Below the pieces are notes generated by a model, which was given only the letters and a program-made list of their open reading frames with translations, was not told the origin of the DNA and searched no databases. A program made the translations under genes and the position numbers. This document shows positions 4,375-44,170 of a DNA stretch of 53,010 nt, piece after piece (position 1 is the stretch's first letter; every line of letters starts with the position of its first letter). Origin of the DNA: Deltaproteobacteria bacterium RIFCSPHIGHO2_02_FULL_44_16 (GTDB lineage: Bacteria; UBA10199; 2-02-FULL-44-16); the NCBI GenBank assembly GCA_001798185.1, contig MGRM01000007.1, positions 1-53,010 of the forward strand, written 5' to 3'.

Positions 4375-4517
4375 AGTTCTCAAAATATATTGAACAGATC
4401 ATCATTCGGGTGACGCCGGAGGCTATTTCGGAAGCTACCGCATATCAGCGGAGCTTACGGAATGCCGCAGGCGGCAGGACCCGTTACAATTAAAAGGTTC
4501 AATATATTTTGAGAACT
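4375..4517. repeat. Palindromic element, family C, copy 1 (perfect 21-bp arms)
   Basis: Arms at 4375-4395 and 4497-4517 are perfect reverse complements over 21 bases and start AGTTCTCAAAATATAT. Inside are the conserved core blocks CGGGTGACGCCGGAGG (4408-4423) and GCCGCAGGCGGCAGGACCCG, and a tip hairpin AAGCT-a-CCGC/GCGG-AGCTT. The outer arm overlaps the stop codon of mltD (4516-4518). The element therefore lies in the 3' region of mltD and upstream of the lipoprotein gene, where a hairpin of this size would form in the transcript. See the matching copies at 13532, 29111 and 48443. Confidence 0.9.
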
Positions 4518-6021
4518 AACTTCTGATGACATTTCTCATTGCGGAAGCGAAGCGGTTGCCTTTTCCCAGGGGAATGCGAATGGTAGTCCCCAAAGGAATT
4601 TTTTCCGTTCCGGTAAAGGCCGCTTTTTGAAGCATGGGATTGAGTTCTTCGAGTTGAAGGATGGAAATGCCACTTGCACGCGCCACTTCAGGAAGGGAGA
4701 GAGAAACTTCGAGTTGAAGTTCGTCAAACGCAATCGGCTGATCATAGTGAAGAGCGTTGAAGTGTTGCGTTACCTCGTCGATGATTTGCGAAGCTGCAAG
4801 AAAAGAGGGGAAAAAATTGCGCGACGCAAAACCATAACTTGGATGTTCAAATTTTTTAATAATCGTTGAGATGTCCTGCGTGCCCAGGAGATTGACGGCT
4901 CCTTTCAACCGTCCTCGCCCCGCATTATAGGCATTAATCGCAAGAGGCCATGTTCCGAGCATTTCATAATTATCTTTTAAGAGGCGTATCGCGGCGGAAG
5001 TGGAACGAATCGGATCAAGTCGTTCATCGACAACATTATTTACGCGAAGACTATAATGATGTGCGGTTCCTTTCATGATTTGCCAAATCCCTCGGGCTCC
5101 AGCAGAGGAGTGAGCATCCATTTGAAACATCGATTCCACAAACACCAGTCGGGTGATTTCTTTCGGGAGTCCAGCTTCTTCAAAGAGCCGTTCAATTTCA
5201 CCGAGAAAACGACCAGAGCGACAAAGCCCCACTTCGAATTGGTCTTTCAGTCCTTTTTGTCCACGAACGCGATCGATGGCGCTGCGAAATTTGAGGGGAT
5301 CATCAATTTTTTGAAATGCTTTTCGAATTTTCCACTCTTCATCTGTTCCTTGTGAAGCAGTTTGCTGGTTCTGAATTTTTTCGAGCATCATTTTAATACG
5401 ATCGCGTTCTTCCTCGAGCGCTTCATCAAGAGCTTTTTGTTTTTCTCGTGGTGTGAGTGCTTCATTCTGAGCGATGTCACTTATATCTAAAACGTTATAA
5501 ATGATGTCGAGAAAGAGGGCGTCGTGCATCACGATCTGATGCGTTGAATATCGAGCGTAAATATTTTTCCAGAATTTGACTTCAGTAGTGAGACCGCTCG
5601 GAACATCAAGCCAAGAGCGATCCACAACTGGAGCAGCCATCGACGTTCCGGCGGGATTATAGGTTGCAAGGCTCGAAGAACGAAATCGACGTGTAAAAGG
5701 AGTCGACTCCGGAATAAAAGGAGCGGCATCAGGTTCAAGTTGAGGGAGCTTTTCTTGAGGAAGTGTTAATTTCGGCAAAGGCTCTGGAGTAAAGCGAGCA
5801 ATGATACCTTGAACTTCTCTCGCTGTTGAAGAGGGTTTCGTGAAATCGTAAGGATCAAGCGCTTCAAAGGAAACCACATCGTTCAGATTTTTTTGGGAAG
5901 CGTGTGATGCAGATGAAGGTTCTTTCAATTTGTCCGGAAGATAACCAAATACCAGAGAGAGCAGGCCGAGAGTAAGGCAGACACACATAAAAATATTAAT
6001 GATGTTTCGCTCTCGGTTCAT
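4516..6021 (-). CDS. mltD: Membrane-bound lytic murein transglycosylase, MltD-like
   Basis: The enzyme cleaves glycan strands of peptidoglycan in the periplasm to give 1,6-anhydro-muropeptides. The SLT domain is clear: catalytic Glu in FVESMF, then GARGIWQIMKGTA, VDERLDPIRSTSAAIRLL and AINAYNAGRGRLKGA. A C-terminal LysM-like segment (SLPEVARASGISILQLEELN and IPLGTTIRIPLG) probably binds glycan. I chose the start at 6021 (MNRERN): AAAGGA lies 6 bases upstream and a membrane anchor (INIFMCVCLTLGLLSLVFGY) follows. An upstream in-frame ATG at 6060 would overlap dacB. The gene follows dacB by 7 bases, so they are one operon. The stop codon abuts a palindromic element. Confidence 0.9.
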   Translation of the reverse strand: MNRERNIINIFMCVCLTLGLLSLVFGYLPDKLKEPSSASHASQKNLNDVVSFEALDPYDFTKPSSTAREVQGIIARFTPEPLPKLTLPQEKLPQLEPDAAPFIPESTPFTRRFRSSSLATYNPAGTSMAAPVVDRSWLDVPSGLTTEVKFWKNIYARYSTHQIVMHDALFLDIIYNVLDISDIAQNEALTPREKQKALDEALEEERDRIKMMLEKIQNQQTASQGTDEEWKIRKAFQKIDDPLKFRSAIDRVRGQKGLKDQFEVGLCRSGRFLGEIERLFEEAGLPKEITRLVFVESMFQMDAHSSAGARGIWQIMKGTAHHYSLRVNNVVDERLDPIRSTSAAIRLLKDNYEMLGTWPLAINAYNAGRGRLKGAVNLLGTQDISTIIKKFEHPSYGFASRNFFPSFLAASQIIDEVTQHFNALHYDQPIAFDELQLEVSLSLPEVARASGISILQLEELNPMLQKAAFTGTEKIPLGTTIRIPLGKGNRFASAMRNVIRS

Positions 6022-6028
6022 AGATCCT

Positions 6029-7444
6029 TTAATGACGGGCGATTTTATCCACCACATCAAGCTGTATCTGACGCATCACATCGTGACCCTGTTTTAAATG
6101 ATCTCCTAAAATGGCAAAGGCACGAACGTCTCCGTTTTTTATCGAAACAAAACCAGCGAGTGCGCTGACGCCATTGAGTGATCCTGTCTTTGCGCGCATT
6201 TTTCCGCGAAGAGCTTCATGGTGATTCCAGTCTTTCATCGTTCCATCTGCCCCAAAAACGGCGAGAGAGGCGACAAAATCAGCGCTGGTGCGAAAGTCGT
6301 GGTAAGCTGCCATCAACACCTGAACCAGTTGAGATGCCGTAAAACGGGTAATGCTCGAGAAACCTGAACCATTTTCGATGGTGTAGCTGGATCGAGGAAT
6401 GCCGATGGAGGCGAGATATTCCTGTAACACTTCCACACCGTGAGCCGTTGTCCCTGGAATCCCTTTTTTGACCGCGGCAAGATGCTTGAGAAGTTGTTCC
6501 GCGGTAAAATTATTCGAAAATTTATTCATGTCGCGAATCAGCAAACTCAGAGGTTTGGAAGAAGCGCTTAAAAGAAGATGTGCATGTTCCGGCGTTTTCC
6601 CTTCTTTGATATTTCCGGAAACAGAAATACCATGTTGAAGAAGGAGGAGACGAAGAATGGAGCCGGCATAAAATGTGGGATTCGTCACATTCCGATAAAA
6701 AACTTTTTCTCCGAGCGATACAGGAATGGTACCGCTGATGATCAACTTTTCTCCTTGAGCTGTTTCGACGGGATCAATCTGAAGGCGGTACTCACTTCCT
6801 GTTTTAAGAGAATTGACGATCTGAAAAAAGTCGATATTCGGATCGAGCGAAACAGTTGCGAGATCACCTCTCTTTGCGCCAGGGGTGACGTGAATCGCAA
6901 GAGAGTTAAAGTTAACGGCAAAAGGACTTGTTACGGCTGCGTATGCGCGCCGACTCTCTCCTGACATGCGGGGATATTCATTTTTTTCAAAAAAACTATT
7001 GTCGATGACAATGTCACCTGAAATGGTTTTCAATCCCTTTACGGAAAGCTCATGGACGATTTTCCAGAGTTCCTCATTGACCAGAAAAGGATCCCCGGTT
7101 CCTTTGACGTAAAGATTCTGAATGGTTCCCTGTTGAGGTGGAGTTGAGCTGAAGAAGTCAGTCGGAAGTGTATAGTTTGGTCCTAAAAAAGAGAGGAGTG
7201 CTGCTGCGGTGACGATTTTGGTGCAAGAGGCAGGGTTACGCAGGACATCACCGTTGATCGTGGCAAGTTCTGTTTGACTGCTGACATCTGCAACTGCAAT
7301 CGAAGTTTTGGCCGCATCAACATGAGATTTTCCTAACGTCTGACGCAAGATCAGTTCCAATGACGTTGCTTTGGGAGAAGCCATCACAAGGGAAGGAAAA
7401 AAAGTGAGGATCAATGCCGTGAGAAGTTTGACATGTGGCTTCAT
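6029..7444 (-). CDS. dacB: D-alanyl-D-alanine carboxypeptidase/endopeptidase, PBP4 family
   Basis: This periplasmic serine enzyme trims stem peptides or cuts cross-links in peptidoglycan. The active-site motifs of class-C low-molecular-mass PBPs are present: SxxK as PASCTKIVTAAALL, SxN as FSNNFTAEQLLKHL and KTG as AKTGSLNGVSALAGF. The PBP4-type insert between the first two motifs is present, and 471 aa fits the family. The start at 7444 gives a clean signal peptide (MKPHVKLLTALILTFFPSLV, cleavage after MA) with GGGGGAA about 10 bases upstream; other in-frame ATGs are at 7474 and 7501. It is divergent from the peptide-binding protein gene, 46 bases away, and forms an operon with mltD. Confidence 0.92.
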   Translation of the reverse strand: MKPHVKLLTALILTFFPSLVMASPKATSLELILRQTLGKSHVDAAKTSIAVADVSSQTELATINGDVLRNPASCTKIVTAAALLSFLGPNYTLPTDFFSSTPPQQGTIQNLYVKGTGDPFLVNEELWKIVHELSVKGLKTISGDIVIDNSFFEKNEYPRMSGESRRAYAAVTSPFAVNFNSLAIHVTPGAKRGDLATVSLDPNIDFFQIVNSLKTGSEYRLQIDPVETAQGEKLIISGTIPVSLGEKVFYRNVTNPTFYAGSILRLLLLQHGISVSGNIKEGKTPEHAHLLLSASSKPLSLLIRDMNKFSNNFTAEQLLKHLAAVKKGIPGTTAHGVEVLQEYLASIGIPRSSYTIENGSGFSSITRFTASQLVQVLMAAYHDFRTSADFVASLAVFGADGTMKDWNHHEALRGKMRAKTGSLNGVSALAGFVSIKNGDVRAFAILGDHLKQGHDVMRQIQLDVVDKIARH

Positions 7445-7490
7445 TGCTCGTAAATTCCCCCTGAAGTTCTTCATAATAAAGGAGAATCTG

Positions 7491-9041
7491 ATGAGTGTCA
7501 AAGCTTTCGCCTTTTTGGGCTGCGCCCTTTTCTATCTTATATCAGGTTCCCTCTGCTTCTTTTCTTGTTCACAAGGGGCGAAGCAGCAATCCAAACTCGA
7601 AATTGCGATTCGAACACAACCCATTACGCTCGATCCACGGACAGCCACGGACGCTTATGGACAACAGATCTCAGAGCTCATTTTTAACGGTCTTTTTAAC
7701 AATAATGAACGGATGGAAATTGTGCCGGACCTTGCAGCACATGTCGAACAGCCCAATGACACGACCTATGTGATTTCCCTTAAAAAAGGGGTCTTCTTTC
7801 ATCATGGAAAGGAGCTCACGGCGGATGATGTCATCTATACGATTACCTCGATGCGCGATGGAGGGGTAATCTCGCCTCATAAGAGTGTTTTTGCCCGCAT
7901 CAAGACACTTGAAAAAATTGATCCTTATACGATCCGTCTTGAACTGACCGAGCCCTTTGCTCCTCTTTTGATTTCCTTGTGCGTGGGCATTGTCCCTCAG
8001 GATGTTGCACAACAAAAAGGGGAGAGCTTTGGACGTGAACCGATTGGAACCGGCCCATACCGATTTGTTCGTTGGATGGACGATACCGTTGTAGAACTTG
8101 CGGCACATGAAAAATTTTCTGGGCAAAAACCTCTATCGCAAAAACTGCTTTTTCAGATTGTCAAAGATGACAATGTGCGCGTGTTGAAACTTTTAAAAGG
8201 GGATCTTGATATTGTGCTCAATGGTGTTCCTCCACTTCTTTTGGAAAAAGTAAAAGAAGATAAAAAACTTGTGACGCGAACAGAGACGGGATTGACGATG
8301 GCGTATATCGGCGTCAACATGACGGACAATATCCTCAAAAAGAAAAATGTTCGTAAAGCGATTGCTTTGGGACTTAATCGAGATGAGCTCATTCAACATC
8401 GTCGGTATGGGCTCGCGGAGAAAGCCAACTCTCTGCTCGCTCCCGTAAACTGGGCGTTTGATAAACGTCTTTCTCAAATTCCCTATGATCCAGAACAAGC
8501 GAAAAAACTTTTGAATGAAGCGGGATATCACGATCCTGATGGAGATGGTCCCAAGATGCGATTTACGCTTTCGTTCAAGACTTCAACCGTAAAAGAGCGT
8601 GTGGATACGGTTCGCATGATTGCGCATCAACTGGGAAAAATTGGAGTCGGCATTAAAGTAGAATCGTTCGAATGGGCAACACTTTTTGATGATATCAAGA
8701 AAGGGAATTTTCAACTTTACTCACTGACATGGGTCGGCATCATTGATCCTGACATGTATTATTCTGTTTTTCATTCAACACAGACTCCGCCGGAAGGGGC
8801 CAATCGAGGTCGTTACAAAAATCCTGCGCTCGATCCTCTCCTCGAAGCAGGGAGAAGAGAGATCAATATTGAAAAACGTGGTGAGATTTATGCGAATGTT
8901 CAAGAAATTTTGCTCGATGACCTTCCGCAGATTCCACTCTGGCACGAAGATAATATCCTCGTCTATCGCAAGGGACTCGAGCATGTAGCTCTCTGGCCCG
9001 ATGCGTCCTTTCAACCTCTTGCCAGTATTTCTACAAAATAA
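7491..9041 (+). CDS. Peptide ABC transporter substrate-binding lipoprotein (SBP_bac_5)
   Basis: This is the extracytoplasmic binding protein of a Dpp/Opp-type importer. The N-terminus carries a lipoprotein signal ending CFFSC (C at residue 24). The mature domain has the family features TLDPRTATDAYGQQISELIF, VPDLA, the family signature region (KKGVFFHHGKELTADDVIYT), IGTGPYRF and AKKLLNEAGY. I chose the ATG at 7491 over an in-frame ATG at 7371 because AAAGGAGAA precedes it and the signal peptide starts there; the length is then 516 aa. It heads an operon with a glycosidase-like gene, two permeases and nagZ, so the likely ligand is a murein peptide rather than a nutritional peptide. That is inference. 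A mini-palindrome (7512-7532) lies in the signal-peptide coding region. Confidence 0.92.
   Translation: MSVKAFAFLGCALFYLISGSLCFFSCSQGAKQQSKLEIAIRTQPITLDPRTATDAYGQQISELIFNGLFNNNERMEIVPDLAAHVEQPNDTTYVISLKKGVFFHHGKELTADDVIYTITSMRDGGVISPHKSVFARIKTLEKIDPYTIRLELTEPFAPLLISLCVGIVPQDVAQQKGESFGREPIGTGPYRFVRWMDDTVVELAAHEKFSGQKPLSQKLLFQIVKDDNVRVLKLLKGDLDIVLNGVPPLLLEKVKEDKKLVTRTETGLTMAYIGVNMTDNILKKKNVRKAIALGLNRDELIQHRRYGLAEKANSLLAPVNWAFDKRLSQIPYDPEQAKKLLNEAGYHDPDGDGPKMRFTLSFKTSTVKERVDTVRMIAHQLGKIGVGIKVESFEWATLFDDIKKGNFQLYSLTWVGIIDPDMYYSVFHSTQTPPEGANRGRYKNPALDPLLEAGRREINIEKRGEIYANVQEILLDDLPQIPLWHEDNILVYRKGLEHVALWPDASFQPLASISTK
7512..7532. repeat. Mini-palindrome, GGGC-GCGCCC type
   Basis: GGGCTGCGCCC flanked by T runs on both sides (AAAAGGGCGCAGCCCAAAA on the minus strand), within the signal peptide of the binding protein. 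Similar copies: 14331-14345, 22281-22297, 22523-22538, 22934-22950 and 44896-44912, all in coding sequence. Confidence 0.6.
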
Positions 9042-9053
9042 ATCGGAGAGAAA

Positions 9054-9953
9054 ATGATTGCTGTTGGTGAAATAAAGATTCGAAAAGTAACGGTGACGCT
9101 CAGTCAGTTTGATGGCGATTCTCGTATTGATTCGTTTGATGTACCACTTCCCACATGGGGAGACACCTTTGAACTCGTTGAAGTATCCTTTCATCCTTCA
9201 CAATTACGTGTGCTGGATATTAATGAGTGGCGAGATCGTATTGCTTCAAAGCATCATGTCAGTGGGGGAGCGCTTGAACAATTACTCCCACCACTCCTCC
9301 GTGACGTCGATGGTCTTAGAGCTGTTGATATCACGAGGTTTCCACCATTTGATTTTTATGCAATTCAAGTAGCTTTTGGCGGAATCTATTATGCTGATGA
9401 AAGACATCCGCAATATCGCACTCGTCAAGCAAGCGGATTTGTTTCTCTCAATGGAATTGTTTTTTCGGAGGATATTGAACACTTCACTCAGGGTGGTTAC
9501 CTCCTTTTCCCTTATGCCGGTTCACCTGAGCTTATTCGGACAAAGTTTATTTCTCACGAAGACAAAATGTCTCCAAGGCAGATTTGTGATCATCAAAAGC
9601 AACAATGTCAGCCGCTCAACAACTATCGCCTCATTCTTCAGTCCAAACCAGTCTTGGTAATGGATGGAAAACCAGAGGGAGATAATAACAACAATTTTAG
9701 AGAAAGACGCGCAGCCATCGCTGCTTATTCTGCGGATCTTGCTTCATTTGTGGTTACAGAGGAAGAGGTGACATTAAGAGAGTTTAGTTTTCTTCTTGCC
9801 AATCTAGGAGTTCCTCTTGCACTTAATCTCGATGGAAAAAAATCAGCTCAAATGGTAGAACGGCGTCCTAATGGGTCTCTGCATGTTTGGGTGGGTGGTG
9901 AAGGGGCAGATCGAATGCCTCAAGTCTATGCCATTATGGATGCTGCTCAATAA
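9054..9953 (+). CDS. Phosphodiester glycosidase-like protein (DUF2233/NAGPA family)
   Basis: The C-terminal two thirds fit the NAGPA/DUF2233 fold, whose known members remove GlcNAc from phosphodiester links or occur with exopolysaccharide genes. Motifs seen: FGGIYYADERHPQYRTRQAS then GFVSLNGIVFSE (usual NGGFF…GxVxxNG), ILQSKPVLVMDGK, an Arg-rich RERRAAIAAY and LGVPLALNLDGKKSAQM (usual LNLDGGGSS). There is no signal peptide, so it appears cytoplasmic. GGAGAGAAA precedes the ATG. It lies 12 bases after the binding protein and 8 bases before the permease, clearly inside the transport operon. This suggests that it acts on an imported sugar-peptide. The family call is confident, the substrate is not. 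Confidence 0.7.
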   Translation: MIAVGEIKIRKVTVTLSQFDGDSRIDSFDVPLPTWGDTFELVEVSFHPSQLRVLDINEWRDRIASKHHVSGGALEQLLPPLLRDVDGLRAVDITRFPPFDFYAIQVAFGGIYYADERHPQYRTRQASGFVSLNGIVFSEDIEHFTQGGYLLFPYAGSPELIRTKFISHEDKMSPRQICDHQKQQCQPLNNYRLILQSKPVLVMDGKPEGDNNNNFRERRAAIAAYSADLASFVVTEEEVTLREFSFLLANLGVPLALNLDGKKSAQMVERRPNGSLHVWVGGEGADRMPQVYAIMDAAQ

Positions 9954-9961
9954 AATTATTT

Positions 9962-10879
9962 ATGCTCGCTTATTTTTTACGCCGTTTTTTATCTGTCATT
10001 CCGGTTCTCCTCGCGGTCTCGACGATTGTTTTTGTTCTGCTTCATGCCATCCCCGGAGATCCTGTTGATCTCATGCTTGGAGAGCAGGCGATGCAGGCTG
10101 ATCGCCAAGCTCTGGTAGAGCAGTTGGGACTCAATCGTCCGATTTTGGTTCAATATCTCGATTTTTTGAAAGGACTAATCACAGGGAATTGGGGAAAATC
10201 ACTTTTTGATCGACAGCCGGTGTTAACCCATGTTGGCAATCGCATTGGAGCGACGCTCCTTCTCGCTTTTTGCGCGATGTTTGTCTCCATTATCATTGCG
10301 CTTCCCGCAGGAATTCTTGCCGCAACGAAGCGGGGTCGATTTTTTGATCAATTCACGATGCTTCTTGCCTTGATTGGGATTTCCATTCCGAATTTTTGGT
10401 TAGGACCAGTGCTTATTCTTATCTTTTCGGTTCATCTGGGAATCCTTCCGATCTCTGGAAAAGAATCGCTGACATCTCTGATTCTCCCTTCGATCACCTT
10501 GGGTGCTGCGCTTGCGGCCATGCTTTCGCGTATGACTCGTTCTTCTATGATTGAAGAACTTGGTCGCGACTATGTGACAACAGCTCGTGCCAAAGGAGTG
10601 TCGGAGAAAAGCATTATTTTCAAACATGCATTTCGAAATGCGCTCAATCCGATTATTACGATTATCGGTCTTCAAGTCGGAACGCTCCTTGCGGGGACGA
10701 TTATTGCCGAGAAAGTTTTTAGTTGGCCTGGAATGGGGATGCTTTTGCTCGACGCGATCCATCGACGCGACTATCCTGTGGTTGAAGGATGCATTCTGGT
10801 GATTTCATTTTTATTTGTGTTCATTAATACCGTGACCGATTGTTTTTATAAAGTGATCGATCCACGAGTGGAGTTGTAA
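9962..10879 (+). CDS. dppB: Peptide ABC transporter permease, DppB/OppB type
   Basis: This is an inner-membrane permease subunit of the peptide importer. The 305-aa protein starts with the family N-terminus (LRRFLSVIPVLLAVSTIVFV…GDPVDLMLGEQA), has six membrane helices, and carries the cytoplasmic EAA loop GRDYVTTARAKGVSEKSIIF that docks the ATPase. No strong ribosome site precedes the ATG, 8 bases after the upstream stop, so translation may be coupled. Its TAA shares a base with the ATG of the next permease (10879). ATPase genes (DppD/DppF) are not in this operon and must be elsewhere. Confidence 0.93.
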   Translation: MLAYFLRRFLSVIPVLLAVSTIVFVLLHAIPGDPVDLMLGEQAMQADRQALVEQLGLNRPILVQYLDFLKGLITGNWGKSLFDRQPVLTHVGNRIGATLLLAFCAMFVSIIIALPAGILAATKRGRFFDQFTMLLALIGISIPNFWLGPVLILIFSVHLGILPISGKESLTSLILPSITLGAALAAMLSRMTRSSMIEELGRDYVTTARAKGVSEKSIIFKHAFRNALNPIITIIGLQVGTLLAGTIIAEKVFSWPGMGMLLLDAIHRRDYPVVEGCILVISFLFVFINTVTDCFYKVIDPRVEL

Positions 10880-11682
10880 TGCACTCACTGACCACGAAAA
10901 TTGGCGCGTTCTTAATTGTGACACTTCTCTTTGTAGCGATCTTTGCTCCGTGGATTGCGCCCCATGATCCGAATCTCTTTGCCATCCAAGAAGCGTTTGC
11001 TCCACCACGCGTCGGTTATTGGTTTGGCCAAGATGCGGATGGTCGTGATATTTTCTCGCGCATTATTTATGGTGCTCGCGTCTCTCTCGGTATTGGATTT
11101 ACGGTGACTTTGATTTCTCTTGTGGTCGGCTGTGCTATTGGACTTCTCTCTGGTTATGTTGGCGGCGTTGTCGATAAAACGATCTCTTTTGTCTCTGATG
11201 TTTTTCTTGCGTTTCCGAGCATTCTCTTTGCGATTACGATTGCTGCTTTTCTTTCTCCTTCCATTGGAAATATTATTTTAATTCTTTCGCTCAAAGGTTG
11301 GGTCACCTTTGCGAGACTTGTGAGAGGTCAAACATTTTCTCTGAAAGAGAGAGATTATATAAGAGCAGGAAGAGCGCTCGGCGCAAGCAGTCTGCGTCTG
11401 TGCTTGTTACATCTTCTTCCGAATATGGTCGGTCCCATTGTCGTGAATATTAGTTTTGGTTTAGCAGGAGTGATCATTATTGAATCCGCGCTTTCGTTTT
11501 TGGGTCTTGGAGTTCCGATTGATACTCCGAGCTGGGGTGGCATGCTCGATCAAGGGACACAGTATCTTCTTGTAGCCCCCCATCTTTCAATCTTTCCTGG
11601 AATTTTTATTATGTTGATTGTGGTTGGATTTAATTTTTTAGGAGATGGTCTGAGAGATAAGCTCGCTCCACGTGGGAAATGA
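10879..11682 (+). CDS. dppC: Peptide ABC transporter permease, DppC/OppC type
   Basis: This is the second permease subunit, 267 aa. It has an N-terminal helix, then HDPNLFAIQEAFAPP and FGQDADGRDIFSRIIYGARVSL typical of DppC, and the EAA loop ERDYIRAGRALGASSLRLCL. The start codon overlaps the stop of dppB (TAATG). It is slightly shorter than many DppC proteins because the N-terminal cytoplasmic extension is absent. nagZ starts 18 bases downstream. Together with the binding protein it forms an importer lacking only its ATPases. Confidence 0.93.
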   Translation: MHSLTTKIGAFLIVTLLFVAIFAPWIAPHDPNLFAIQEAFAPPRVGYWFGQDADGRDIFSRIIYGARVSLGIGFTVTLISLVVGCAIGLLSGYVGGVVDKTISFVSDVFLAFPSILFAITIAAFLSPSIGNIILILSLKGWVTFARLVRGQTFSLKERDYIRAGRALGASSLRLCLLHLLPNMVGPIVVNISFGLAGVIIIESALSFLGLGVPIDTPSWGGMLDQGTQYLLVAPHLSIFPGIFIMLIVVGFNFLGDGLRDKLAPRGK

Positions 11683-11700
11683 CAACCATGAAAGGTCAAA

Positions 11701-12756
11701 ATGAAAGAACTTGGACAAATGTTTGTGGTTGGATTTTCCGGAACCAAACCCTCAGACGCATTTCTGCGCTTTCTTCATGACGAAAATATCGGTGGTATTT
11801 TGCTCTACGGCGCGAATGTCAAAACGCCAAAGCAAATTTTAGAACTGACAGAAATATTGCAAGATGCGGTGCGAACGTCGCTGCTCATCACGGTCGATCA
11901 TGAAGGAGGAAATGTTTTTCGGATGTCCAAACCTTTTACGCAATTTCCCAGCATGAGTGAAGTCGCACAAAAGACAAAAACTCATGGAGAGCATATCGTC
12001 GCTGAAATCGGAAAAATTATGGGGAGAGAACTTCGCGCTGTCGGCATTCACTGTAATTTTGCTCCTGTCCTTGATGTCCTGACAAATCCTTTTAATCGGG
12101 TGATCGGCAAGCGCTCATTTGGAAATGATCCGCATCTTGTAGCAAACCTCGGGTGTGAGCTCATGAGAGGACTTGAAGAAGAGGGGATTATGTCGTGCGG
12201 AAAACATTTCCCCGGGCATGGAGATACGAATCATGACAGTCACGAAACGCTTCCCTCTCTTGCGCATACGCGAAAACGTTTTGAGATTTGCGAGTTTATT
12301 CCTTTTCGTGCAGCGATTGCAGCGGGCATTCCCTCGATGATGACCGCACATCTTCACATTCCTCTTCTCGATAGCGAAAATATGGTGACGATATCGCGAC
12401 AGGTGACCACGACCATTCTTCGGCATGAGTTGGGATATGATGGGCTCATTTTTACCGATGATCTGCTGATGCGAGGAATTGCTGGCATGATGCCGATTCC
12501 TGAGGCAACGGTTCGCTCTCTCCACGCTGGAGCTGATATGCTTCTTTTTAGTCGTGATCTGGAAATCCAGAAGAAGTCGCTTGCGGAACTGAAAAACGCG
12601 GTTGCGCAAGGTCGCATTCCAGAAGAGCAGCTTCAAGCATCACTTTCCCGCATCAAACACGTGAAAAAACGATACTGTCATCATGAACTTGAACGTCTTC
12701 CTTTAAGTGTTATCGGTTCCTCTGAACATCGGGAATTTTTAACAAAATTGTCTTAA
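11701..12756 (+). CDS. nagZ: Beta-N-acetylhexosaminidase NagZ (GH3)
   Basis: NagZ is a cytoplasmic glycosidase that removes GlcNAc from anhydro-muropeptides during cell-wall recycling. The 351-aa protein has the GH3 signatures KHFPGHGDTNHDSHETLPSL (catalytic His loop) and GLIFTDDLLMRGI (nucleophile Asp). The active-site HEGG in TVDHEGGNVFR and GRELRAVGIHCNFAPVLDVL are also typical. No signal peptide is present. It is the last gene of the peptide-uptake operon and close to dacB and mltD, which supports a joint role in murein release, uptake and recycling. A palindromic repeat lies just downstream. Confidence 0.94.
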   Translation: MKELGQMFVVGFSGTKPSDAFLRFLHDENIGGILLYGANVKTPKQILELTEILQDAVRTSLLITVDHEGGNVFRMSKPFTQFPSMSEVAQKTKTHGEHIVAEIGKIMGRELRAVGIHCNFAPVLDVLTNPFNRVIGKRSFGNDPHLVANLGCELMRGLEEEGIMSCGKHFPGHGDTNHDSHETLPSLAHTRKRFEICEFIPFRAAIAAGIPSMMTAHLHIPLLDSENMVTISRQVTTTILRHELGYDGLIFTDDLLMRGIAGMMPIPEATVRSLHAGADMLLFSRDLEIQKKSLAELKNAVAQGRIPEEQLQASLSRIKHVKKRYCHHELERLPLSVIGSSEHREFLTKLS

Positions 12757-13087: not shown

Positions 13088-14221
13088 ATGAGTGTGGACG
13101 GTAAAGACTGGAAATTGACCGGAAATTTCTCGAGTCGCATTCGCAAAAAGGGCGAAGATGCGCGTGAAGAAAATCGAGACCGTCATGATGAGTTCATGCA
13201 AAAAAGCAAACAGGCGAAAAATGTTGCCAATGCGCTTCTCCATCAAACACGTGATATAAAACAAGGGGAAGCAAAACAAACCGTACAACGCACGGAAACC
13301 TTGCAACAATCAACATCGTCCTCTGACAAAAAAATTTCTTCTGCCATGTCGAACTCCGAAATTTCTCGTGAGGGGCATAAAGAAAAGGCCGGAAAGAATT
13401 TTGTTGAAGCAGCGCAAGCAGCAACAAATTTACAAAAACTTTCTACAAAGCAGATCCCAAAAGTAAATGTTGAACCAAAACAACCGACTCTTGCAAAACA
13501 GGGGACTGAGAAAACATCTTCTTCTTTGCCAGCGAGAAACACTTTCAAAACAGATGGGACACGGGTGACGCCGGAGGCTGTTCCGGGAGGCCTCCGCGAA
13601 AAGCGGAGGGCCGGAACACCGCAGGCGGCAGGACCCGAAACCAAAAAAAGTTTTGAAAGCGTTTCTCGCGAAACAAAACAATCTTTTGAAAATATCTCTC
13701 GCAAACCTGCTGAGGCAGGACAACCTCTTACGGTAAAGGCAGGGCCCGTTACGAAAGATCGTTTTGAAAGTACTTCTGAAAACAAAAAAGAATTTAAAAA
13801 AGATGAAACAAAAAAGAATGCTTCGTCTACTGCAGCATCCGCTTCTCCACTTTCCCGCTCACGCAAGGAAAACCTCGGCGAACTTGAAGCCGGTGTCTCA
13901 AGTCGTTTTGGTGGCGAATCCGGAGAGAATATTATTGTTCAGGATGGAGATGTTCTTTCTTCTCTGACGATTGAAGAGTTTCCTCAACCTTTTGAAACTT
14001 TCAATGCAGAAGCCGCAGAAACAGCCGTTGTCACCAAGGGACGACAATATAAATATTTTATTGAAAAGACACGCGATCAGCTCAATGCCATTCGTGAGTT
14101 TGACGAAGAACTTGAGATGGGACTTCAATCACTCGCAAAACGTGTCTTAACCGATGACCCAGATCTGAAACTCTCGACCGCGGATTTCATCAAAAATATT
14201 TATGGAGGAACACGCGCATGA
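13088..14221 (+). CDS. Hypothetical low-complexity protein with an inserted palindromic element, 377 aa
   Basis: The ATG follows AGAGGAG by 4 bases. The protein is highly charged, Lys/Glu/Ser/Thr-rich and probably disordered for residues 1-270, with a helical C-terminus (VTKGRQYKYFIEKTRDQLNA onward). There is no signal peptide or known domain. Residues about 149-194 are encoded by a family C palindromic element (RVTPEAVPGG…AGTPQAAGPE). A decayed second copy encodes AGQPLTVKAGPVTKDRFES. A short repeat (FESVSRE, FENISRK, FESTSEN) follows each. The last bases (ATGA) overlap the next gene, so the two are translated together. Function unknown; a partner of the 1040-aa coiled-coil protein is likely. 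Confidence 0.8.
   Translation: MSVDGKDWKLTGNFSSRIRKKGEDAREENRDRHDEFMQKSKQAKNVANALLHQTRDIKQGEAKQTVQRTETLQQSTSSSDKKISSAMSNSEISREGHKEKAGKNFVEAAQAATNLQKLSTKQIPKVNVEPKQPTLAKQGTEKTSSSLPARNTFKTDGTRVTPEAVPGGLREKRRAGTPQAAGPETKKSFESVSRETKQSFENISRKPAEAGQPLTVKAGPVTKDRFESTSENKKEFKKDETKKNASSTAASASPLSRSRKENLGELEAGVSSRFGGESGENIIVQDGDVLSSLTIEEFPQPFETFNAEAAETAVVTKGRQYKYFIEKTRDQLNAIREFDEELEMGLQSLAKRVLTDDPDLKLSTADFIKNIYGGTRA
13532..13669 (+). repeat. Palindromic element, family C, copy 2, inside a reading frame
   Basis: Arms at 13532-13551 and 13650-13669 pair over 20 bases with one mismatch (GCGAGAAACACTTTCAAAAC against its complement). The core is CGGGTGACGCCGGAGG…GTTCCGG and CCGGAACACCGCAGGCGG followed by CAGGACCCG, with tip hairpin CCTCCGC-gaaaa-GCGGAGG. 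The whole element is translated without a stop as part of the 377-aa protein. Confidence 0.88.
13700..13769 (+). repeat. Palindromic element, family C, partial copy
   Basis: GGCAGG, a degenerate middle, then GGCAGGGCCCGTTAC and an arm-like GTTTTGAAAG match the 3' half of family C elements. The 5' half is missing or decayed. It is read in frame in the same protein, giving AGPVTKDRFES, equivalent to AGPVTAKRFEI in copy 3. Confidence 0.6.
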
Positions 14222-17200
14222 AATCGGCAGGAAGAATCGATGATGTCTTTCGTCGCGCTGGGTCACCGGTTCAATTTAACAACGGTGAACTCAAAAGTGT
14301 CCGCTCACTTCTCGAGAGAACACAAGAAGAAAGGGCGCCAGCCCCATTTGAGCAATCTTTCTATAGCCGAAATTTTTTAGATACACTTCTGCGCGGAGGA
14401 ATGGATGCAGCCGCATTCGCTGACAAGGGACTTGGCAGTGCTGCGAAAAAATTTGGTCAGGCTTGGGATTTTTTTGGACTTGGGGATGGTCAATCAGCAA
14501 TGTCTGTTGCTGATAAATTTGCACAATCCGCTCAACACATTTTCGCCAATCTCTTTGCCCCACAGAACCAACCCTTTGCGCCGATGATGGCAGGAGCGCA
14601 GACAGAGAATGGAGCAATGCGATCCCCTGCAAGTCAAAGTTCGTTTGATGTCAGCTCAGGTAAAGCCGAACCATCCAAACCAGTGGGACTTCCTGAATTT
14701 GTTAAAGACATGATTACAAATCTTAAGGGTGCTAAAGAAGAGTTACAAAAAGCAGTGAATAGAGATGAAAAAGTAGAGGATCAATATCAAAAGTTTGAAA
14801 AATTTTATGAGGAAACGCTCGAAAATGTGAAGAAACAGGATTATTTAAGCGAAGAGGCCATGGAGTCGGCGCTTGAGCAAGTTGAAGAACTCAAAGAAGA
14901 GGGAGATACTCTTTATGAAACCTATCTGGATGCCCAAGATGAAGAGGCTCCCGAAAAGGTAAATCTCCCTTCTGAGATTGAACAAAAAATTAGCGCATTG
15001 AGACAAGAGAAAAAAACTTTAGAAGAAGAGGCGAAGAGAGCTGGTTCTCAGCAAGCGTTGAGCGATAAATATCAAAACTTCCTCAGGAAATATGACGAGC
15101 TTCGCGGAGAAATAAAATCAGTTTCCTATGTGAGCGAAGATGCGATGAAGTATGCGTTGTCAGAACTAAAAGCTGTGAAGACTCAAGGGAGTGAAATATT
15201 TGAAGCCAAAATGAATACTCTCCCCAAAAAAGCTCCAGAAGCTTCTCCACCACCTGCAGCTGACCCTGTACCGGAAGCACCGACGGCCTCTGAGCCTGAA
15301 GCAGATGCAGAAGCAGCATCAGCCGATGAACCTGAAGCAGCTGAACCTGCCACAGAACCACCTCCAGCAGCACCACCTGCTGAATCTGAGCCTCAGCCAG
15401 CTCCAGAAGAATCAGCACCCGAACCGGAACCTGAACCAGAGCCGGCGCCTGAACCAGCACCGCCACCGCCTCAGCCTGATCCGAATGCGCAGATACAAGC
15501 CATCAAAAAATTTGAAGATCAAAAGAATGATTATCTCGCAGAGATCGGTTCCATGAGTGACGTTTCGGAATTAGAACGGAAAAAACAGGAAATTTTATTT
15601 CAATTGGATGATATCAATGCCTCATTGCCAAAAGATTCGCCTGAACGTGCGCGCATTATCGCTCTAAGTGAAGAACTTACTAAAGCATATTATGTACAGA
15701 GAGATTCTCTTCAATCACCAGCCATACCCGATGACTTTTCGTCTCCAAGAGATCAACGAGACTTAGCAGAAGGGATGATAGAGCCATTTTTACTGGCGGT
15801 GAATGATTTCACGACGCGCGTTCAAGGTCAAAGAGGTGAAGATCTTTCAAAGATGGAGCGTGAACTTGGTGGACTGCAAAGACAGATTGACACAGTTGAG
15901 CAGGAAGTAGAAAACGAAATATCAGATCGTTCAATCCTCAAAGAGACGTCTGATAAATTGTGGGATGAACTTCAAACTGCCGAAGTAGCTTTTGAAAACG
16001 AACAAACTCGAGAAGCAATTGAACCTTTGGAAGAAAAAAAGGAGGAGTTGAAGAAAAGTCTCACGAATCCAGAAGAGACACTTGCTTCCGTCACTTCAAA
16101 GTATCGCGATGTACAAGAAACGTATCAAGAACGCGCACGATATCTTCTAAGTCTGGAGTTCAATACGCCTGATGTAAAAAAGAAAACTCTTGCAAAGATG
16201 GATGGCACATTTACAGCAGCTTCAATGCACTTCACTCACTATAAAACTATTCACGGCATCATGGAACCTATTTATGGGAGTAAAGCAGCAGCTCAAACTG
16301 CAACACTTATTCGAGAAAATTCTGCAAAACCATTTAATGAACTCATTCAACTGGCAAAAACGAGAGTCGAAGAGAAACGAAGAGAATCACCCCCAAGTGT
16401 TAAATCATCTACAACCGCCGCGATTGCAGCTTCACCAGAAGAAGAAGTTCTTGAACCCCTTGAAGCTGAACGACGTGCGAAAGCGATGAAGCAACGTGTG
16501 ACAAAAGCTGTGATAAGTTTTGAAGACTCGTTAACAAAATTTCAAGAAGATCTGAGTGGAGATGGAGTTGACCCAAGGGCGAAAATGGAAATGTATGAAG
16601 AGAATGAAGAAGAAGGACTTCCAGCATATCTTCAGCAAATTGTTGATAATAGACATTTATCACAAGAAGAACGAGCTCAAACTCTTCTTGCTGTTCATGA
16701 AAGGTGGGAAAAATTTAAAGCATCAGATGAAGTACAAGAAATTTTATCAGAGTATGATCAAAAAATTCGTGCTGTCACAACAACTAAACCGGAGAGTGGA
16801 TCATTAGGTGATGCAGTCTTTGCGGGCACTGGAGTTCAAGCACCATCAAAAAACTTAGAAAGCGCGGAAGCGCCTCCAAGTACAGCACTCCCGCCAAATG
16901 AAGCGATGGCTGATATGATCGATGGTTCTTCAGAGCGCTATGCTATCAAAAGTGCTGGAGGGAAAAAGTTTGTGGATCTCATCACTGATCGCGCTGATCG
17001 CATTTTAAAAAAACGTGCGAAAGAAGAACGATTAGGTGCGGGTCAATATTCTATTCCTCTTCAATTTGTCGTGACACCAGATGCATCCAAAACCCAGGCC
17101 ATTGTCCGTCTTGAGTTTGACCGCGCCAGGGTCCGTGATCTCAAAGGAAGAGGGATTACTGAGAAAACTGCAGAAAAAATGCTTCAAGACTTATCTTTTT

Positions 17201-17340
17201 TCGTACCGCTTCCAGGAGATGTTTCGAATGAATGGTTTGGTAGAAAAACAGCTACATTTGATGACAAGGATCTCCAAAGCGTGACTCTTCGAAATCCTTC
17301 AAAACGCATCCATCGTGTTGTTCCTCTGAGGATCAGTTAA
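14218..17340 (+). CDS. Giant coiled-coil protein with Pro/Glu-rich linker, 1040 aa
   Basis: The start overlaps the previous stop (ATGA). There is no signal peptide or membrane helix. Residues 1-150 resemble a short exported- or effector-type N-terminus, but no family is recognised. Residues about 161-246 and 253-339 are two copies of one helical unit (QYQKFEKFYEETLENVKKQD / KYQNFLRKYDELRGEIKSVS, then LSEEAMESALEQVEELK / VSEDAMKYALSELKAVK). Residues about 340-425 are Pro/Glu/Ala-rich (PEPEPEPEPAPEPAPPPP). Long coiled coils follow to about 850 and the last 120 residues look globular. A mini-palindrome at 14331-14345 encodes RAPAPF. Function unknown; a structural or scaffold role is plausible. 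Confidence 0.85.
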   Translation: MKSAGRIDDVFRRAGSPVQFNNGELKSVRSLLERTQEERAPAPFEQSFYSRNFLDTLLRGGMDAAAFADKGLGSAAKKFGQAWDFFGLGDGQSAMSVADKFAQSAQHIFANLFAPQNQPFAPMMAGAQTENGAMRSPASQSSFDVSSGKAEPSKPVGLPEFVKDMITNLKGAKEELQKAVNRDEKVEDQYQKFEKFYEETLENVKKQDYLSEEAMESALEQVEELKEEGDTLYETYLDAQDEEAPEKVNLPSEIEQKISALRQEKKTLEEEAKRAGSQQALSDKYQNFLRKYDELRGEIKSVSYVSEDAMKYALSELKAVKTQGSEIFEAKMNTLPKKAPEASPPPAADPVPEAPTASEPEADAEAASADEPEAAEPATEPPPAAPPAESEPQPAPEESAPEPEPEPEPAPEPAPPPPQPDPNAQIQAIKKFEDQKNDYLAEIGSMSDVSELERKKQEILFQLDDINASLPKDSPERARIIALSEELTKAYYVQRDSLQSPAIPDDFSSPRDQRDLAEGMIEPFLLAVNDFTTRVQGQRGEDLSKMERELGGLQRQIDTVEQEVENEISDRSILKETSDKLWDELQTAEVAFENEQTREAIEPLEEKKEELKKSLTNPEETLASVTSKYRDVQETYQERARYLLSLEFNTPDVKKKTLAKMDGTFTAASMHFTHYKTIHGIMEPIYGSKAAAQTATLIRENSAKPFNELIQLAKTRVEEKRRESPPSVKSSTTAAIAASPEEEVLEPLEAERRAKAMKQRVTKAVISFEDSLTKFQEDLSGDGVDPRAKMEMYEENEEEGLPAYLQQIVDNRHLSQEERAQTLLAVHERWEKFKASDEVQEILSEYDQKIRAVTTTKPESGSLGDAVFAGTGVQAPSKNLESAEAPPSTALPPNEAMADMIDGSSERYAIKSAGGKKFVDLITDRADRILKKRAKEERLGAGQYSIPLQFVVTPDASKTQAIVRLEFDRARVRDLKGRGITEKTAEKMLQDLSFFVPLPGDVSNEWFGRKTATFDDKDLQSVTLRNPSKRIHRVVPLRIS
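14331..14345. repeat. Mini-palindrome in the 1040-aa gene
   Basis: AAGGGCGCCAGCCCC, translated as RAPAP within EERAPAPFEQ. Member of the group listed at 7512. Confidence 0.5.
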
Positions 17341-17436: not shown

Positions 17437-19499
17437 ATGTCTTTTAGCACAACCTCCATTGCTCTACGTACGACTCAAAATCTTATAGCTGAAAATCCTA
17501 CAACGGCTGAAAAAAACAACCCCTTCATTACATGATTCACAGATTCCTGATATTCCCGCGAGAGAACACATTGGCGGTGGATTTCTTTCTCGGTTTTCAA
17601 ATTCGATATTGTTGGCTCAAGTTCCAAATCAAGAGGAAGCGCAAGTAAGCGCTGCGCTTCATAAACTTCAATCTTCTGATGCTTCAGAGAGAAGAGACTC
17701 AATACTGATTCTTGCAAATTCTTCAGATAACAGAGCTGTTCCCGCATTGATTAAAATGCTTGAAGATCGAGATAATTCGGTTCGCCTTGCAGCAACAGAG
17801 GCGCTTAGGAAAAAGCAAGACCTAAGAGCCATTGAACCACTTTTTAGAATTCTTGATGATGATCAAACTGCAATAAGAGATGTTGCAGAGGCGACTTTGG
17901 AAGAATTTTTTGTTCAAAATAGAAGAAGCTGCTCAAAATCTATTTCCTTATTTTGAACATCGCAATTCAAATGTACGGTCCTATGCTGTAACATGGTCGG
18001 TTTGGGCAGGAGAAAATGCCGTTCCACACTTAATTCGCATTCTTCATCATGATCAGGATTCCTTCGTCAGAGCCTCAGCAGTTGGTGCCTTAGGTTCTTG
18101 GGTTCTTAGAACAACACCATTAACTACAACAAAACGCGTGAGCGCTTTGATATCGAGCTTAAATGACCCTGAAAAATGGGTTCGAGGAAAGATAGCTGAA
18201 TCGTTGGGTGACGTGGGTGGTAATGATAGACGAACTGTTCCCGCACTTGTTTCAATGTTAAAAGATGAATCACATTGGGTTCGAGTTGTTGTGGCGCGAG
18301 CATTGGGGAGGTTAAAAAATAAAAATGCAGTGCTTTCTCTTATCCACGGTTTAAAGCATGATAAAGATGGTTCTGTAAGAGGAGCCATTGCGGCTTCTCT
18401 AGGTCAGATTATGGATCGGAGAAGTTTTGCTGTTCTTGTGATGAGTATTCGAGATCAAGATGATTATGTAAGACTGAAGGCTGTCCAAGCTCTTTCGAAT
18501 TTTAAAGGGGAAAAAACCATCGAATTTCTGAAACCGGTATTAAAAGATAGCAATGGAAATATTCAGTTAGCTGCAGCTATATCGTTAGTAAATCTCGGTT
18601 ATAGTGAAGCGATAGATATTATCGTTTCTCACTTACAAGGGAAAAAGCCAGACCCAGATGATTACAGGAGTAATTCTTTGTTGAGACAAGCAGCAGAAGT
18701 TCTCGTACAAAGAGGAAACCCGGCATTTGCAAAAGTGCTAAAGGAGTATGGAGGAGAAGAATGGGAACTTGCTATTTATAAATCTGCTGCTCAAAAAGCT
18801 ATTGATACAGGGAAATATGCGGATGCAATTGTTTATTATGACCATCTCATAGAAAAACGCCCAAACGATTTTACCTATCCTCTCCGTCAAGCTGAAGTCT
18901 ATCAAAAACTTGGAAGAATTGAAGAAGCGATAACAAATTGTAAAAAATCAATTGCGATATGCAGCGATTGCGACGGCTTGGCGGCAAAACGTTTGTTGGC
19001 AGAGCTTGAGGAGGTGCAACGTCAAAGAAATTTTCTTCCTCCAACTGTTTTTATTGGCTTTGCAGACTTTCAGGATGCCGGTGAGGAAATTACCGACAAA
19101 AATATAGGAAGGAAATCAAAGTCGTTGCTCGATGAAGGATTAAAAAAGGAAATCACTGATTCAATTTTAAGAGAGCTCAAAGCGAACTGGATACGCGTGA
19201 GCTTGCCAAATATTGAATCTCTCAGCGACAAGTTGCAAGGATATGAATGTACGGAGGCTGGATGTACGGCAGAAATTGCGGGAGCCATGGATCTCGAAGG
19301 TGGCTTTTTTGGCGCTGTAACTTTGATTCCGGTATCTCAGGAATTACGCTTTTCACTCAGTTATGTGCAGACAGAAAATGCGACTGAACTGCATCGGGTT
19401 TCGGTAACTCGGAAGAAGCAACGTGTCAAAACATCGTCTGATGCTCAGGCTATTGCACGAGAGTTGGTACAGAAGATGGTGAACCAATTGAAATCGTGA
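17437..19499 (+). pseudogene. HEAT/TPR-repeat protein gene with two +1 frameshifts
   Basis: AAGGAGAAC precedes the ATG at 17437. The first frame (MSFSTTSIALRTTQNLIAEN…) runs to a TGA near 17535. The protein resumes in the next frame after an A7 run at about 17508-17514 (KKTTPSLHDSQIPDIP…) to 17956, and in the third frame after a T6 run at about 17907-17912 to 19499. Joined, it has PBS-lyase-type HEAT repeats (for example DKDGSVRGAIAASLGQIMDR), a TPR-like pair (KYADAIVYYDHLIEKRPNDF) and an unknown C-terminal domain with ECTEAGCTAEIAGAM. The largest intact part is 17880-19499. Both shifts are +1 and at homopolymers, so they are sequencing errors or recent mutations; programmed shifting is less likely. 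It probably belongs with the two genes upstream. Confidence 0.75.
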
Positions 19500-38727: not shown

Positions 38728-39915
38728 ATGGAAACCACGTGGAGCGTCAATCCTTCGTCACTTGGAACCTTAAATAGTGACGAACTCAAGCAAGTGGCCT
38801 CTTCTTTGGCTGAACGCGTCGAGCGACTCGAGCGGCTGGTGCAGGTCATCTCGCGTGGCAAGTATATGTGGGAATCAACTTTCGATGCGATTACGTTACC
38901 GGTTCAAATCGTGACCGAAGAATACGAAATTCAACGTGCCAATGTGAGCTGTGCAGAAGTGGGTGGGGGCGATATCGTGAACTTTACAGGTCATCACTGC
39001 TATGAAGTTTTCGCAGGTCGCAAAACCCCCTGCGGTGGCTGCCCTTTGCAAGAATCGCTTCGAAAAAATACCACGGTGAATTCCATTCTTTCGGATGAAA
39101 TCCACGGACGCCATTTTCAAGTTTCTGCTTATCCCTATGTGCATGATGCGACGACCGGCAAACGATCGGTCATTCTCTCCTATCGTGATGTGACCGAAGA
39201 ACAGCGTCTTCAGCAGGAGATCGTGCAGCAAGAAAAGATGGCAGCAATCGGAATGCTCGCCGGTGGTGTGGCGCATGAAATCAACAATCCACTCGGTGGC
39301 ATTGTTGCCTTCACGCAACTTATCCTTCGCAATGTAAAAAAAGAAGACGATCAATTAAAAAGCGATTTGAAAGAGATTGAAGGAGCGGCCATGCGTTGCA
39401 AACGCATTGTGGCTGATCTTCTCGAATTTTCGAGAGTTTCAAAAGAACGAAAAAAACTGATGTGCCATTTAAAAGATGTTTTTGAAAAAGTGATTCCGTT
39501 TGTGCATGCTGAGATGAAAAATTTAAACATTCATTTTGAACTCCATGCTGAAGAAAATCTTCCTGCCATTGCTGCAGAATCGGATCGGCTTCAACAAGTT
39601 TTTTTAAATCTTCTGACCAATGCCTGTCATGCGATGCCCAAAGGTGGAAGTCTAACGGTCGATATGCGAACGTCCTCTTCCAAAAATGATGTCGTGGTCA
39701 GTGTGATTGATACCGGTGAAGGAATTGCAGCAGAACATCTTTCCAAAATATTTGATCCGTTTTTTACAACCAAAGATCCCGGGAAGGGGACTGGGTTAGG
39801 ACTTTCTATTTGCTATCGCATTATTCGTGAGCATGGCGGATCCATTGATGTCGAGAGTGAGCTTGGCAAGGGGACAACGTTCCGGATGACGCTTCCCAAA
39901 GCGGTCTCTGTCTAA
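38728..39915 (+). CDS. PAS-domain sensor histidine kinase, NtrB-like
   Basis: The 395-aa protein has a coiled start and a PAS domain (about 48-150). The PAS domain carries a Cys cluster, HHCYEVFAGRKTPCGGCPL, which may bind a metal or sense redox. The kinase core shows the H-box GGVAHEINNPLGGIVAFTQL (phospho-accepting His about 183), N-box NLLTNACHAMP, G1 VIDTGEGI and G2 GKGTGLGLSICYRI. No membrane helix is present, so it senses a cytoplasmic signal. The stop is 9 bases before a sigma-54 response regulator that has a good ribosome site, making an evident two-component pair. Confidence 0.93.
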   Translation: METTWSVNPSSLGTLNSDELKQVASSLAERVERLERLVQVISRGKYMWESTFDAITLPVQIVTEEYEIQRANVSCAEVGGGDIVNFTGHHCYEVFAGRKTPCGGCPLQESLRKNTTVNSILSDEIHGRHFQVSAYPYVHDATTGKRSVILSYRDVTEEQRLQQEIVQQEKMAAIGMLAGGVAHEINNPLGGIVAFTQLILRNVKKEDDQLKSDLKEIEGAAMRCKRIVADLLEFSRVSKERKKLMCHLKDVFEKVIPFVHAEMKNLNIHFELHAEENLPAIAAESDRLQQVFLNLLTNACHAMPKGGSLTVDMRTSSSKNDVVVSVIDTGEGIAAEHLSKIFDPFFTTKDPGKGTGLGLSICYRIIREHGGSIDVESELGKGTTFRMTLPKAVSV

Positions 39916-39924
39916 GGAGGTTGT

Positions 39925-41331
39925 ATGTCGCGCATTTTGGTAGTTGATGATGAAGCTTCGATCCGAAAAGCGCTTGAGCGTTTTTTGCGAGAGTTGGGGC
40001 ATGAAGTTTTTGTGGCGGCTGATGGCGAGGAGGCGCTTCATATTCTTCAAACCGAAACGCTCGATTTGGCGCTCGTTGATCTGGTGATGCCGAAGATCGA
40101 TGGCATCGAACTCATTCGACGTTTGAAGCAGCACGATCCAAATATTGTGGCGATCGTCCTGACCGGTTTTGGAACGATCACCTCTGCGGTCGAAGCCATG
40201 CGTGCTGGCGCGTATCATTATCTGACGAAGCCGTTTGAGCTTGATGATATTGCTTCGCTCATTTCATTGGCACTTGATCATCGTGAACTCAAACAAGAAA
40301 ATCGTCGCCTCAAAAGCCAACTTCATGGTCGATATCGATTTGAAAATATCATTGGGACCAACGAAGGCTTAGGTCCTGTTTTTGATATGATCGAACGGGT
40401 TTCAGAAACTGATAGCACCGTGTTGATTTTAGGTGAAAGTGGAACCGGAAAAGAACTGATTGCTCGAGCCATTCATTATAATAGTCCGCGTCGAGATAAA
40501 TCTTTGGTGACCGTAAACTGCGCTGCGATTCCTGAAGATCTTTTAGAGTCGGAACTTTTTGGACATGTGCGAGGCGCTTTTACGGGTGCGGTGCAAACTC
40601 GACCCGGAAGATTTGATGCAGCTCATCACGGGAGTATTTTTCTCGATGAAATTGGAGATATGAGTTTAAAGCTTCAGGTGAAACTCCTTCGTGTTCTTCA
40701 AGAGCACCGATTTGAACCTGTTGGTTCGAATAAAACGCACCAAGTTGATGTTCGAATTATTGCTGCCACCAATCAAGATTTAGAAAAAGCGGTCAATGAG
40801 GGACGTTTTCGCGAAGATCTTTATTATCGCTTACATGTCATTCCCATTCGTGTCCCACCCTTGCGGGAACGGCTCGCTGATGTTCCACTTCTTGCGGAAC
40901 ATTTTATGAAAAAATTTAATAAGGCAAATAATCATCATGTCAGAGGTCTTTCCTCTGATGCTCTTGATGCCATGATGAATTATGCATGGCCCGGAAATGT
41001 ACGTGAGTTAGAGAATGTGATTGAACGCGCAGTGGTGTTACAACACGATGGAGAAATTCAAGCAAAAACCCTTGAGGAGAAATTGCGGCAACCAAAAGTT
41101 TTGGGAGAACGAAAAGATGCAACCACGGCAGCGCATGTGGGGATTCGTATTCCCGATGAAGGCATTTCATTTAAACACGCAGTTGCGGATTTTGAAGCCC
41201 AATTGATTCTACAAGCCTTGGAAAAAACAGGTGGGAATAAAAATCAAGCAGCATCACTTTTAAAATTAAATCGAACGACACTTGTCGAAAAAATTAAAAA
41301 GCAACAACTTGAAAAACGAACGACGGGATAA
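39925..41331 (+). CDS. Sigma-54-dependent response regulator, NtrC family (first of three)
   Basis: AAGGAGGTTGT precedes the ATG. The receiver domain is intact (ILVVDDEASIRKALERF, phospho-acceptor Asp in LALVDLVMP, Lys in LTKPF). The AAA+ domain has Walker A GESGTGKELI, the RpoN-contacting GAFTGA loop (HVRGAFTGAVQTRPGRFDAA), LDEIGDMSLKLQVKLLRVLQ and ATNQDLEK. A Fis-type helix-turn-helix lies at the end (GNKNQAASLLKLNRTTL). It is cognate to the preceding histidine kinase. Its stop shares a base with the next start (TAATG), so the two activators are translated together. Confidence 0.95.
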   Translation: MSRILVVDDEASIRKALERFLRELGHEVFVAADGEEALHILQTETLDLALVDLVMPKIDGIELIRRLKQHDPNIVAIVLTGFGTITSAVEAMRAGAYHYLTKPFELDDIASLISLALDHRELKQENRRLKSQLHGRYRFENIIGTNEGLGPVFDMIERVSETDSTVLILGESGTGKELIARAIHYNSPRRDKSLVTVNCAAIPEDLLESELFGHVRGAFTGAVQTRPGRFDAAHHGSIFLDEIGDMSLKLQVKLLRVLQEHRFEPVGSNKTHQVDVRIIAATNQDLEKAVNEGRFREDLYYRLHVIPIRVPPLRERLADVPLLAEHFMKKFNKANNHHVRGLSSDALDAMMNYAWPGNVRELENVIERAVVLQHDGEIQAKTLEEKLRQPKVLGERKDATTAAHVGIRIPDEGISFKHAVADFEAQLILQALEKTGGNKNQAASLLKLNRTTLVEKIKKQQLEKRTTG

Positions 41332-42755: not shown

Positions 42756-42766
42756 GAAGGGGCTCT

Positions 42767-44149: not shown

Positions 44150-44170
44150 AAGCTAGTTGAAATGAACTTA

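Follow-up and report, generated by a model that had tools for sequence, protein, structure and literature searches.

AmpG, a muropeptide permease of the major facilitator superfamily, belongs to a family unrelated to the ATP-binding cassette (ABC) importers, operates without a binding protein and often serves as the marker by which muropeptide recycling is recognised in Gram-negative genomes. In Escherichia coli, MppA is an orphan murein-peptide binding protein that makes use of OppBCDF. Another system, YejBEF-YepA, replaces AmpG in Agrobacterium, and most species carry YejBEF-YepA or AmpG, some of them both (Gilmore and Cava 2022, PMC9790009). The present work deals with a stretch of 53,010 nucleotides (contig MGRM01000007.1, positions 1 to 53,010; the window) from the genome of Deltaproteobacteria bacterium RIFCSPHIGHO2_02_FULL_44_16, in which genes for an Opp-type binding protein and two permeases (oppA, oppB and oppC), a DUF2233/NAGPA-like gene and nagZ are found between positions 7491 and 12756. 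It is probable, judging from gene order and residue conservation, that this locus is an ABC-type muropeptide recycling cluster in which the DUF2233 gene is a passenger specific to the lineage.

The open reading frames (ORFs) and protein families that an initial annotation had placed in this region were confirmed by the ORF list and by Pfam and NCBIfam profiles, and they are the following:

4516 to 6060, minus strand: mltD-type lytic transglycosylase with an SLT domain (PF01464, 87 bits), beside dacB in relatives too
6029 to 7444, minus strand: dacB, PBP4-type DD-carboxypeptidase/endopeptidase (PF02113, 301.9 bits; TIGR00666, 249.6 bits against a cut-off of 107.8)
7428 to 7501, both strands: overlapping divergent sigma-70-like candidate promoters, from a consensus scan only
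7491 to 9041, plus strand: oppA, family 5 solute-binding protein (SBP_bac_5; PF00496, 273.4 bits), with an ATG start at 7491
9054 to 9953, plus strand: DUF2233/NAGPA-like gene of a divergent subfamily (PF09992, 45.2 bits against 25, profile positions 53-146 of 169)
9962 to 10879, plus strand: oppB, permease (PF00528, 155.8 bits; NF045470 Opp2B, 363.2 bits against a cut-off of 350)
10879 to 11682, plus strand: oppC, permease (PF00528, 89.1 bits)
11701 to 12756, plus strand: nagZ, GH3 beta-N-acetylhexosaminidase (PF00933, 260 bits; NF003740, 237 bits against a cut-off of 207)

The divergent position of dacB and mltD, 46 bases from oppA, was borne out with dacB read from the ATG at 7444, which was set as its start here; its ORF reaches upstream to a TTG at 7501. 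The N-terminus of OppA looks by eye like a lipoprotein signal, and the protein reached the cut-off of none of the NCBIfam equivalogs. The region had been named a peptide importer operon, and this name holds for the binding protein and the two permeases but not for an ATPase, since none is encoded between 7491 and 12756.

Like YejBEF-YepA, this would be a peptide-type ABC importer that takes the role of AmpG and feeds NagZ. However, YejBEF-YepA has the ATPase YejF in its operon and the specific binding protein elsewhere, whereas the present cluster includes nagZ and a gene for the binding protein but none for an ATPase. OppB is also a poor fit to the YejB permease model (149.7 against a cut-off of 445). 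The likeness to MppA and the Opp system of E. coli consists of an Opp-type murein peptide binding protein and of parts shared with an Opp system, but two dedicated permeases are encoded here and only the ATPases would be shared. Among open-licence papers, none was recognised that describes an opp-nagZ cluster of this kind. In the mechanism proposed, MltD and DacB would cut peptidoglycan outside the inner membrane and free fragments, which OppA would bind and for which OppB and OppC would form the channel. Import would be powered by OppD/OppF-type ATPase subunits from the opp operons of contigs 14 and 22, and NagZ would then strip N-acetylglucosamine from the imported muropeptide in the cytoplasm. 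The role played by AmpG in many Gram-negative bacteria would thus fall to OppABC, and in this phylum either importer can sit between dacB and nagZ.

The comparison set comprised 46 genomes of the same phylum, the source genome included, and both the phylum and the class searches cover these same 46 (completeness 67-100%; contamination 6% in G036 and 8% in G016). The importer was scored as present when an OppB match of at least 50% identity was found, paralogues reaching up to 46% over short stretches, and gene layout was read from tblastn comparisons of seven genes and AmpG with 48 fetched stretches from 40 genomes. OppB orthologues occur in 21 of the 46 genomes, that is, in 20 besides the source. 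In 18 of these 20, oppC is directly upstream of nagZ (with a spacing of about 600 bases in G012); the exceptions are G040, where nagZ was not detected, and G043, where it is located elsewhere. A divergent dacB is found beside oppA in 12 of the 20. In family f12 the pair oppA-oppB is separated from oppC-nagZ, yet oppC still adjoins nagZ, and oppA-oppB is still with dacB wherever this can be read. The proposal that the importer carries cell-wall fragments is supported by this phylum-wide linkage to nagZ, dacB and mltD, together with the presence of ampG in the same place in relatives, so that the synteny makes the importer reading probable, the substrate itself being probably of this kind.

AmpG was scored as present with a match to TIGR00901 of at least 200 bits, and weak matches below 30 bits in G005, G033 and G036 were scored as absent. 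On this basis, AmpG-like proteins are found in 21 of the 46 genomes, and none was found in the source genome by the TIGR00901 search at E <= 0.001. The interval between dacB and nagZ is readable in 16 genomes, including the source: nine contain oppABC, two ampG (G017 and G021), two oppA alone (G029 and G039, both with ampG elsewhere) and three nothing (G001, G024 and G033). Besides these, ampG adjoins dacB near a contig end in G010, and it adjoins nagZ in G020, G031 and G035. Its probable function and, in two relatives, this place in the cluster are what the importer has in common with AmpG. Related to this interval, the lone oppA of G029 and G039 (L074 and L075) resembles an orphan binding protein, and in G001 (L018), a genome of the same family with 1.1 Mb, dacB adjoins nagZ with no importer between them and no detected AmpG.

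The opp version is also found in G036, of the ampG-bearing family f5, where oppAB lies beside dacB and oppC beside nagZ, with a contig break between them. This genome is nested among ampG-bearing genomes of family f5 on a tree built from the best Mpl match of each genome, and the genes beyond nagZ on its contig look by eye like those of G021, which belongs to the same family. The occurrence of both importers at the place between dacB and nagZ, G036 included, is taken as the best evidence that OppABC and AmpG handle similar substrates. The tree holds 42 genomes, without G026, G027, G038 and G040, whose best Mpl match resembled MurC; the presence of Mpl was not taken as evidence, because relatives of MurC match the Mpl family search too.

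Regarding the energy supply, the C-terminal domain of OppD/OppF (PF08352) is found in 45 of the 46 genomes, among them all 21 importer genomes. The source genome has four matches, which form two pairs in two further opp operons (contigs 14 and 22). Since OppD/F-type ATPase genes are carried elsewhere by every importer genome, sharing of ATPases would be possible in all of them, and the importer may be powered by an ATPase borrowed from other opp operons. It is tentatively suggested, at somewhat less than even confidence, that muropeptide uptake in this uncultured phylum is the work of an Opp-type importer without an ATPase of its own, borrowing OppD/OppF, locked to nagZ and swapping with AmpG at the place between dacB and nagZ, an ABC solution distinct from both YejBEF-YepA and MppA. 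If this is true, genomes that seem to lack cell-wall recycling would in fact achieve it with a peptide transporter of ordinary appearance, recognisable by its nagZ neighbour, and an ABC-type replacement of AmpG would have occurred outside Alphaproteobacteria.

The DUF2233 gene has a different distribution. A search with the four members of its subfamily at E <= 1e-15 found them in 4 of the 46 genomes (the source, G010, G025 and G034). The initial annotation had proposed that the order of these genes be compared among relatives, with loss of the gene from most of them counting against its having a part in the operon, and this adverse outcome was obtained: at the oppA-oppB junction the gene is present in none of the 15 other relatives where this junction can be read. 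This OppB-type importer is absent from the three other carriers, nagZ was not detected in G025 and G034, and the neighbourhoods of the gene in the three genomes differ from each other and from the source locus. The copy of G025 adjoins an integrase, a Prim-Pol primase and a resolvase, which is suggestive only. The gene is probably a lineage-specific insertion, a passenger outside the conserved pathway, although it is probably co-transcribed with the opp genes. Horizontal transfer was also considered as its origin and rejected: codon usage is ordinary, no direct repeats were found flanking the gene, and there was no match in plasmids or phages and none confirmed in viral contigs.

The protein scores above the Pfam NAGPA gathering cut-off, though over profile positions 53-146 only, and residues 81-283 of the subfamily align with ordinary NAGPA proteins (profile comparison, E 8.9e-13). 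The ordinary NAGPA protein common in the phylum is a different protein, with a signal-like N-terminus by eye, and the source genome has a copy of it on contig 28 (about 115006-115503; L001). In 16 of the 26 loci with an ordinary NAGPA gene (L042-L067), rho lies within the fetched 3 kb. Residues were compared with 27 distinct ordinary NAGPA proteins, from 26 of 26 loci and the paralogue of the source genome itself. Among the residues invariant in 27/27 of these, N258, D260, G261, S264 and Q266 are kept in the subfamily, whereas N109 (the N of NGGFF, here a G), H52 and the pair G198-P199 are lost in all four members; R200, found in 26/27, is lost as well. The window copy alone keeps the P at 199, with K at 198, and it alone has K262 in place of the second G of DGG, which is G in 27/27 ordinary proteins and in the three siblings, where DGGPS stands instead of DGKKS. 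The LNLDGKKS motif described previously is therefore present and its departure from the usual motif is real, but the departure is larger than first noted because N109, H52 and G198-P199 are lost besides the change in DGG.

The solved relatives of NAGPA (6pky, 6pku, 6pkg, 3ohg and 5h3k) have NGGFF or NAGFF together with NLDGG. Conserved in 4/4 members of the subfamily, which are about 31-34% identical to the window protein, are a pair of cysteines (C178 and C185) and the motifs GGYLxF and YRLxxQS. A single-sequence AlphaFold model of the protein gave a mean predicted local distance difference test score of 31.7, too low for the model to be used in judging the NAGPA fold and cavity. The absence of a signal peptide, also claimed before, agrees with inspection by eye, and the open frame extends no more than 4 codons beyond the ATG on its upstream side (303 against 299 codons). 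Taken as a whole, the likeness to the NAGPA/DUF2233 phosphodiester glycosidases consists of the homologous residues 81-283, with NLDG and the S of NLDGGxS; unlike them, the protein has G for the N of NGGFF, lacks H52 and GPR, carries DGK for DGG and a Cys-containing insert, and shows no signal peptide. These substitutions suggest that the putative active site of the subfamily is altered.

Several observations weigh against the interpretation of the locus as a muropeptide recycling cluster with a passenger gene. Although importer and AmpG are distributed unevenly (17 genomes have the importer alone and 17 AmpG alone, four have both and eight have neither; Fisher p = 0.0012, a value that ignores relatedness), independent pairs on the 42-genome tree, a comparison of low power, give no support for exclusion of one by the other: the trait runs in the other direction in 2.0 of 10 pairs (median p 1) and in 3.1 of 7 pairs (median p 0.69). 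On that tree the importer requires at least 12 state changes and AmpG at least 8. The four genomes with both importers and the eight with neither are themselves unfavourable, as is the presence of nagZ in 6 of those eight (G001, G009, G026, G033, G041 and G044). With three exceptions, moreover, the AmpG-like matches score less than the 350 bits set as the curated cut-off for TIGR00901. Since the Fisher test ignores relatedness and the independent pairs are unsupportive, mutual exclusion is not claimed, only the interchange at the same place. As for the passenger, the DUF2233 gene fits closely between its neighbours, with 12 bases separating it from oppA and 8 from oppB, and its codon deviation (0.135) is inside the range of 0.076-0.169 of 21 window genes; because of both features the gene is not visibly a recent arrival. 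No other gene of the operon has so low a G+C content at third codon positions (0.308), but lower values occur in the window. A further adverse point, the score of OppB above the cut-off of NF045470 (363.2/350), a model described as a nickel permease, would suit OppABC being a general peptide or nickel importer whose adjacency to nagZ is historical. The cut-offs of the nickel models are not reached by OppA (NikA, 167 against 393) or by OppC (Opp2C, 258 against 300), oppC remains beside nagZ even in genomes where oppA-oppB lies apart, and the same place is taken by AmpG in two relatives, all of which makes a nickel or general peptide importer unlikely.

Two other explanations concern the DUF2233 protein. 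According to the initial annotation it would be a cytoplasmic NAGPA-type glycosidase adding a recycling step on an imported phosphodiester- or sugar-linked fragment, with which the Pfam match above the cut-off, the place of the gene inside the operon, the lack of a visible signal peptide and the retention of N258, D260 and S264 are consistent. Such an added step is nevertheless unsupported and very improbable, given that the gene occurs at 0/15 of the other junctions and the subfamily in 4/46 genomes, that the three other carriers lack this importer and two of them have no detected nagZ, and that N109, H52 and G198-P199 are lost in all four members, with DGG changed to DGK here. A rather doubtful possibility, which is not so remote, is that the subfamily retains activity but with its specificity shifted to an unrelated sugar phosphodiester of the cytoplasm, the position in the operon serving for expression only. 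The residues conserved in 4/4 members (the Cys pair, GGYLxF and YRLxxQS) suggest constraint, and the ORF is intact, but these residues come from only four sequences at such low identity to the window copy, and at DGGPS this copy differs even from its three siblings. The case of DUF2233, with no counterpart there in 15 readable relatives, is a warning against inferring function from operon position alone.

The candidate promoters between dacB and oppA consist, on the plus strand, of TTGACA-17-TAAATT (7428-7456, 10/12 consensus matches) and, on the minus strand, of TTGACA-17-TATTAT (7501-7473, 11/12 matches); the consensus scan of the region gave 12 sites against a mean of 7.4 (standard deviation 2.5) in shuffled sequences. 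After nagZ, two genes without a Pfam match (377 and 1040 amino acids) occupy 13088-17340 of the window, and weak relatives of the first of them are found beyond nagZ in G001 and G006. The overlapping ORFs at 17609-17956 and 17880-19499 are in different frames, look repeat-like by eye and may represent a single gene with a frameshift. Further on, at 38728-46292, there is a run of genes resembling, by eye, a sensor kinase, response regulators and an anti-sigma-factor module.

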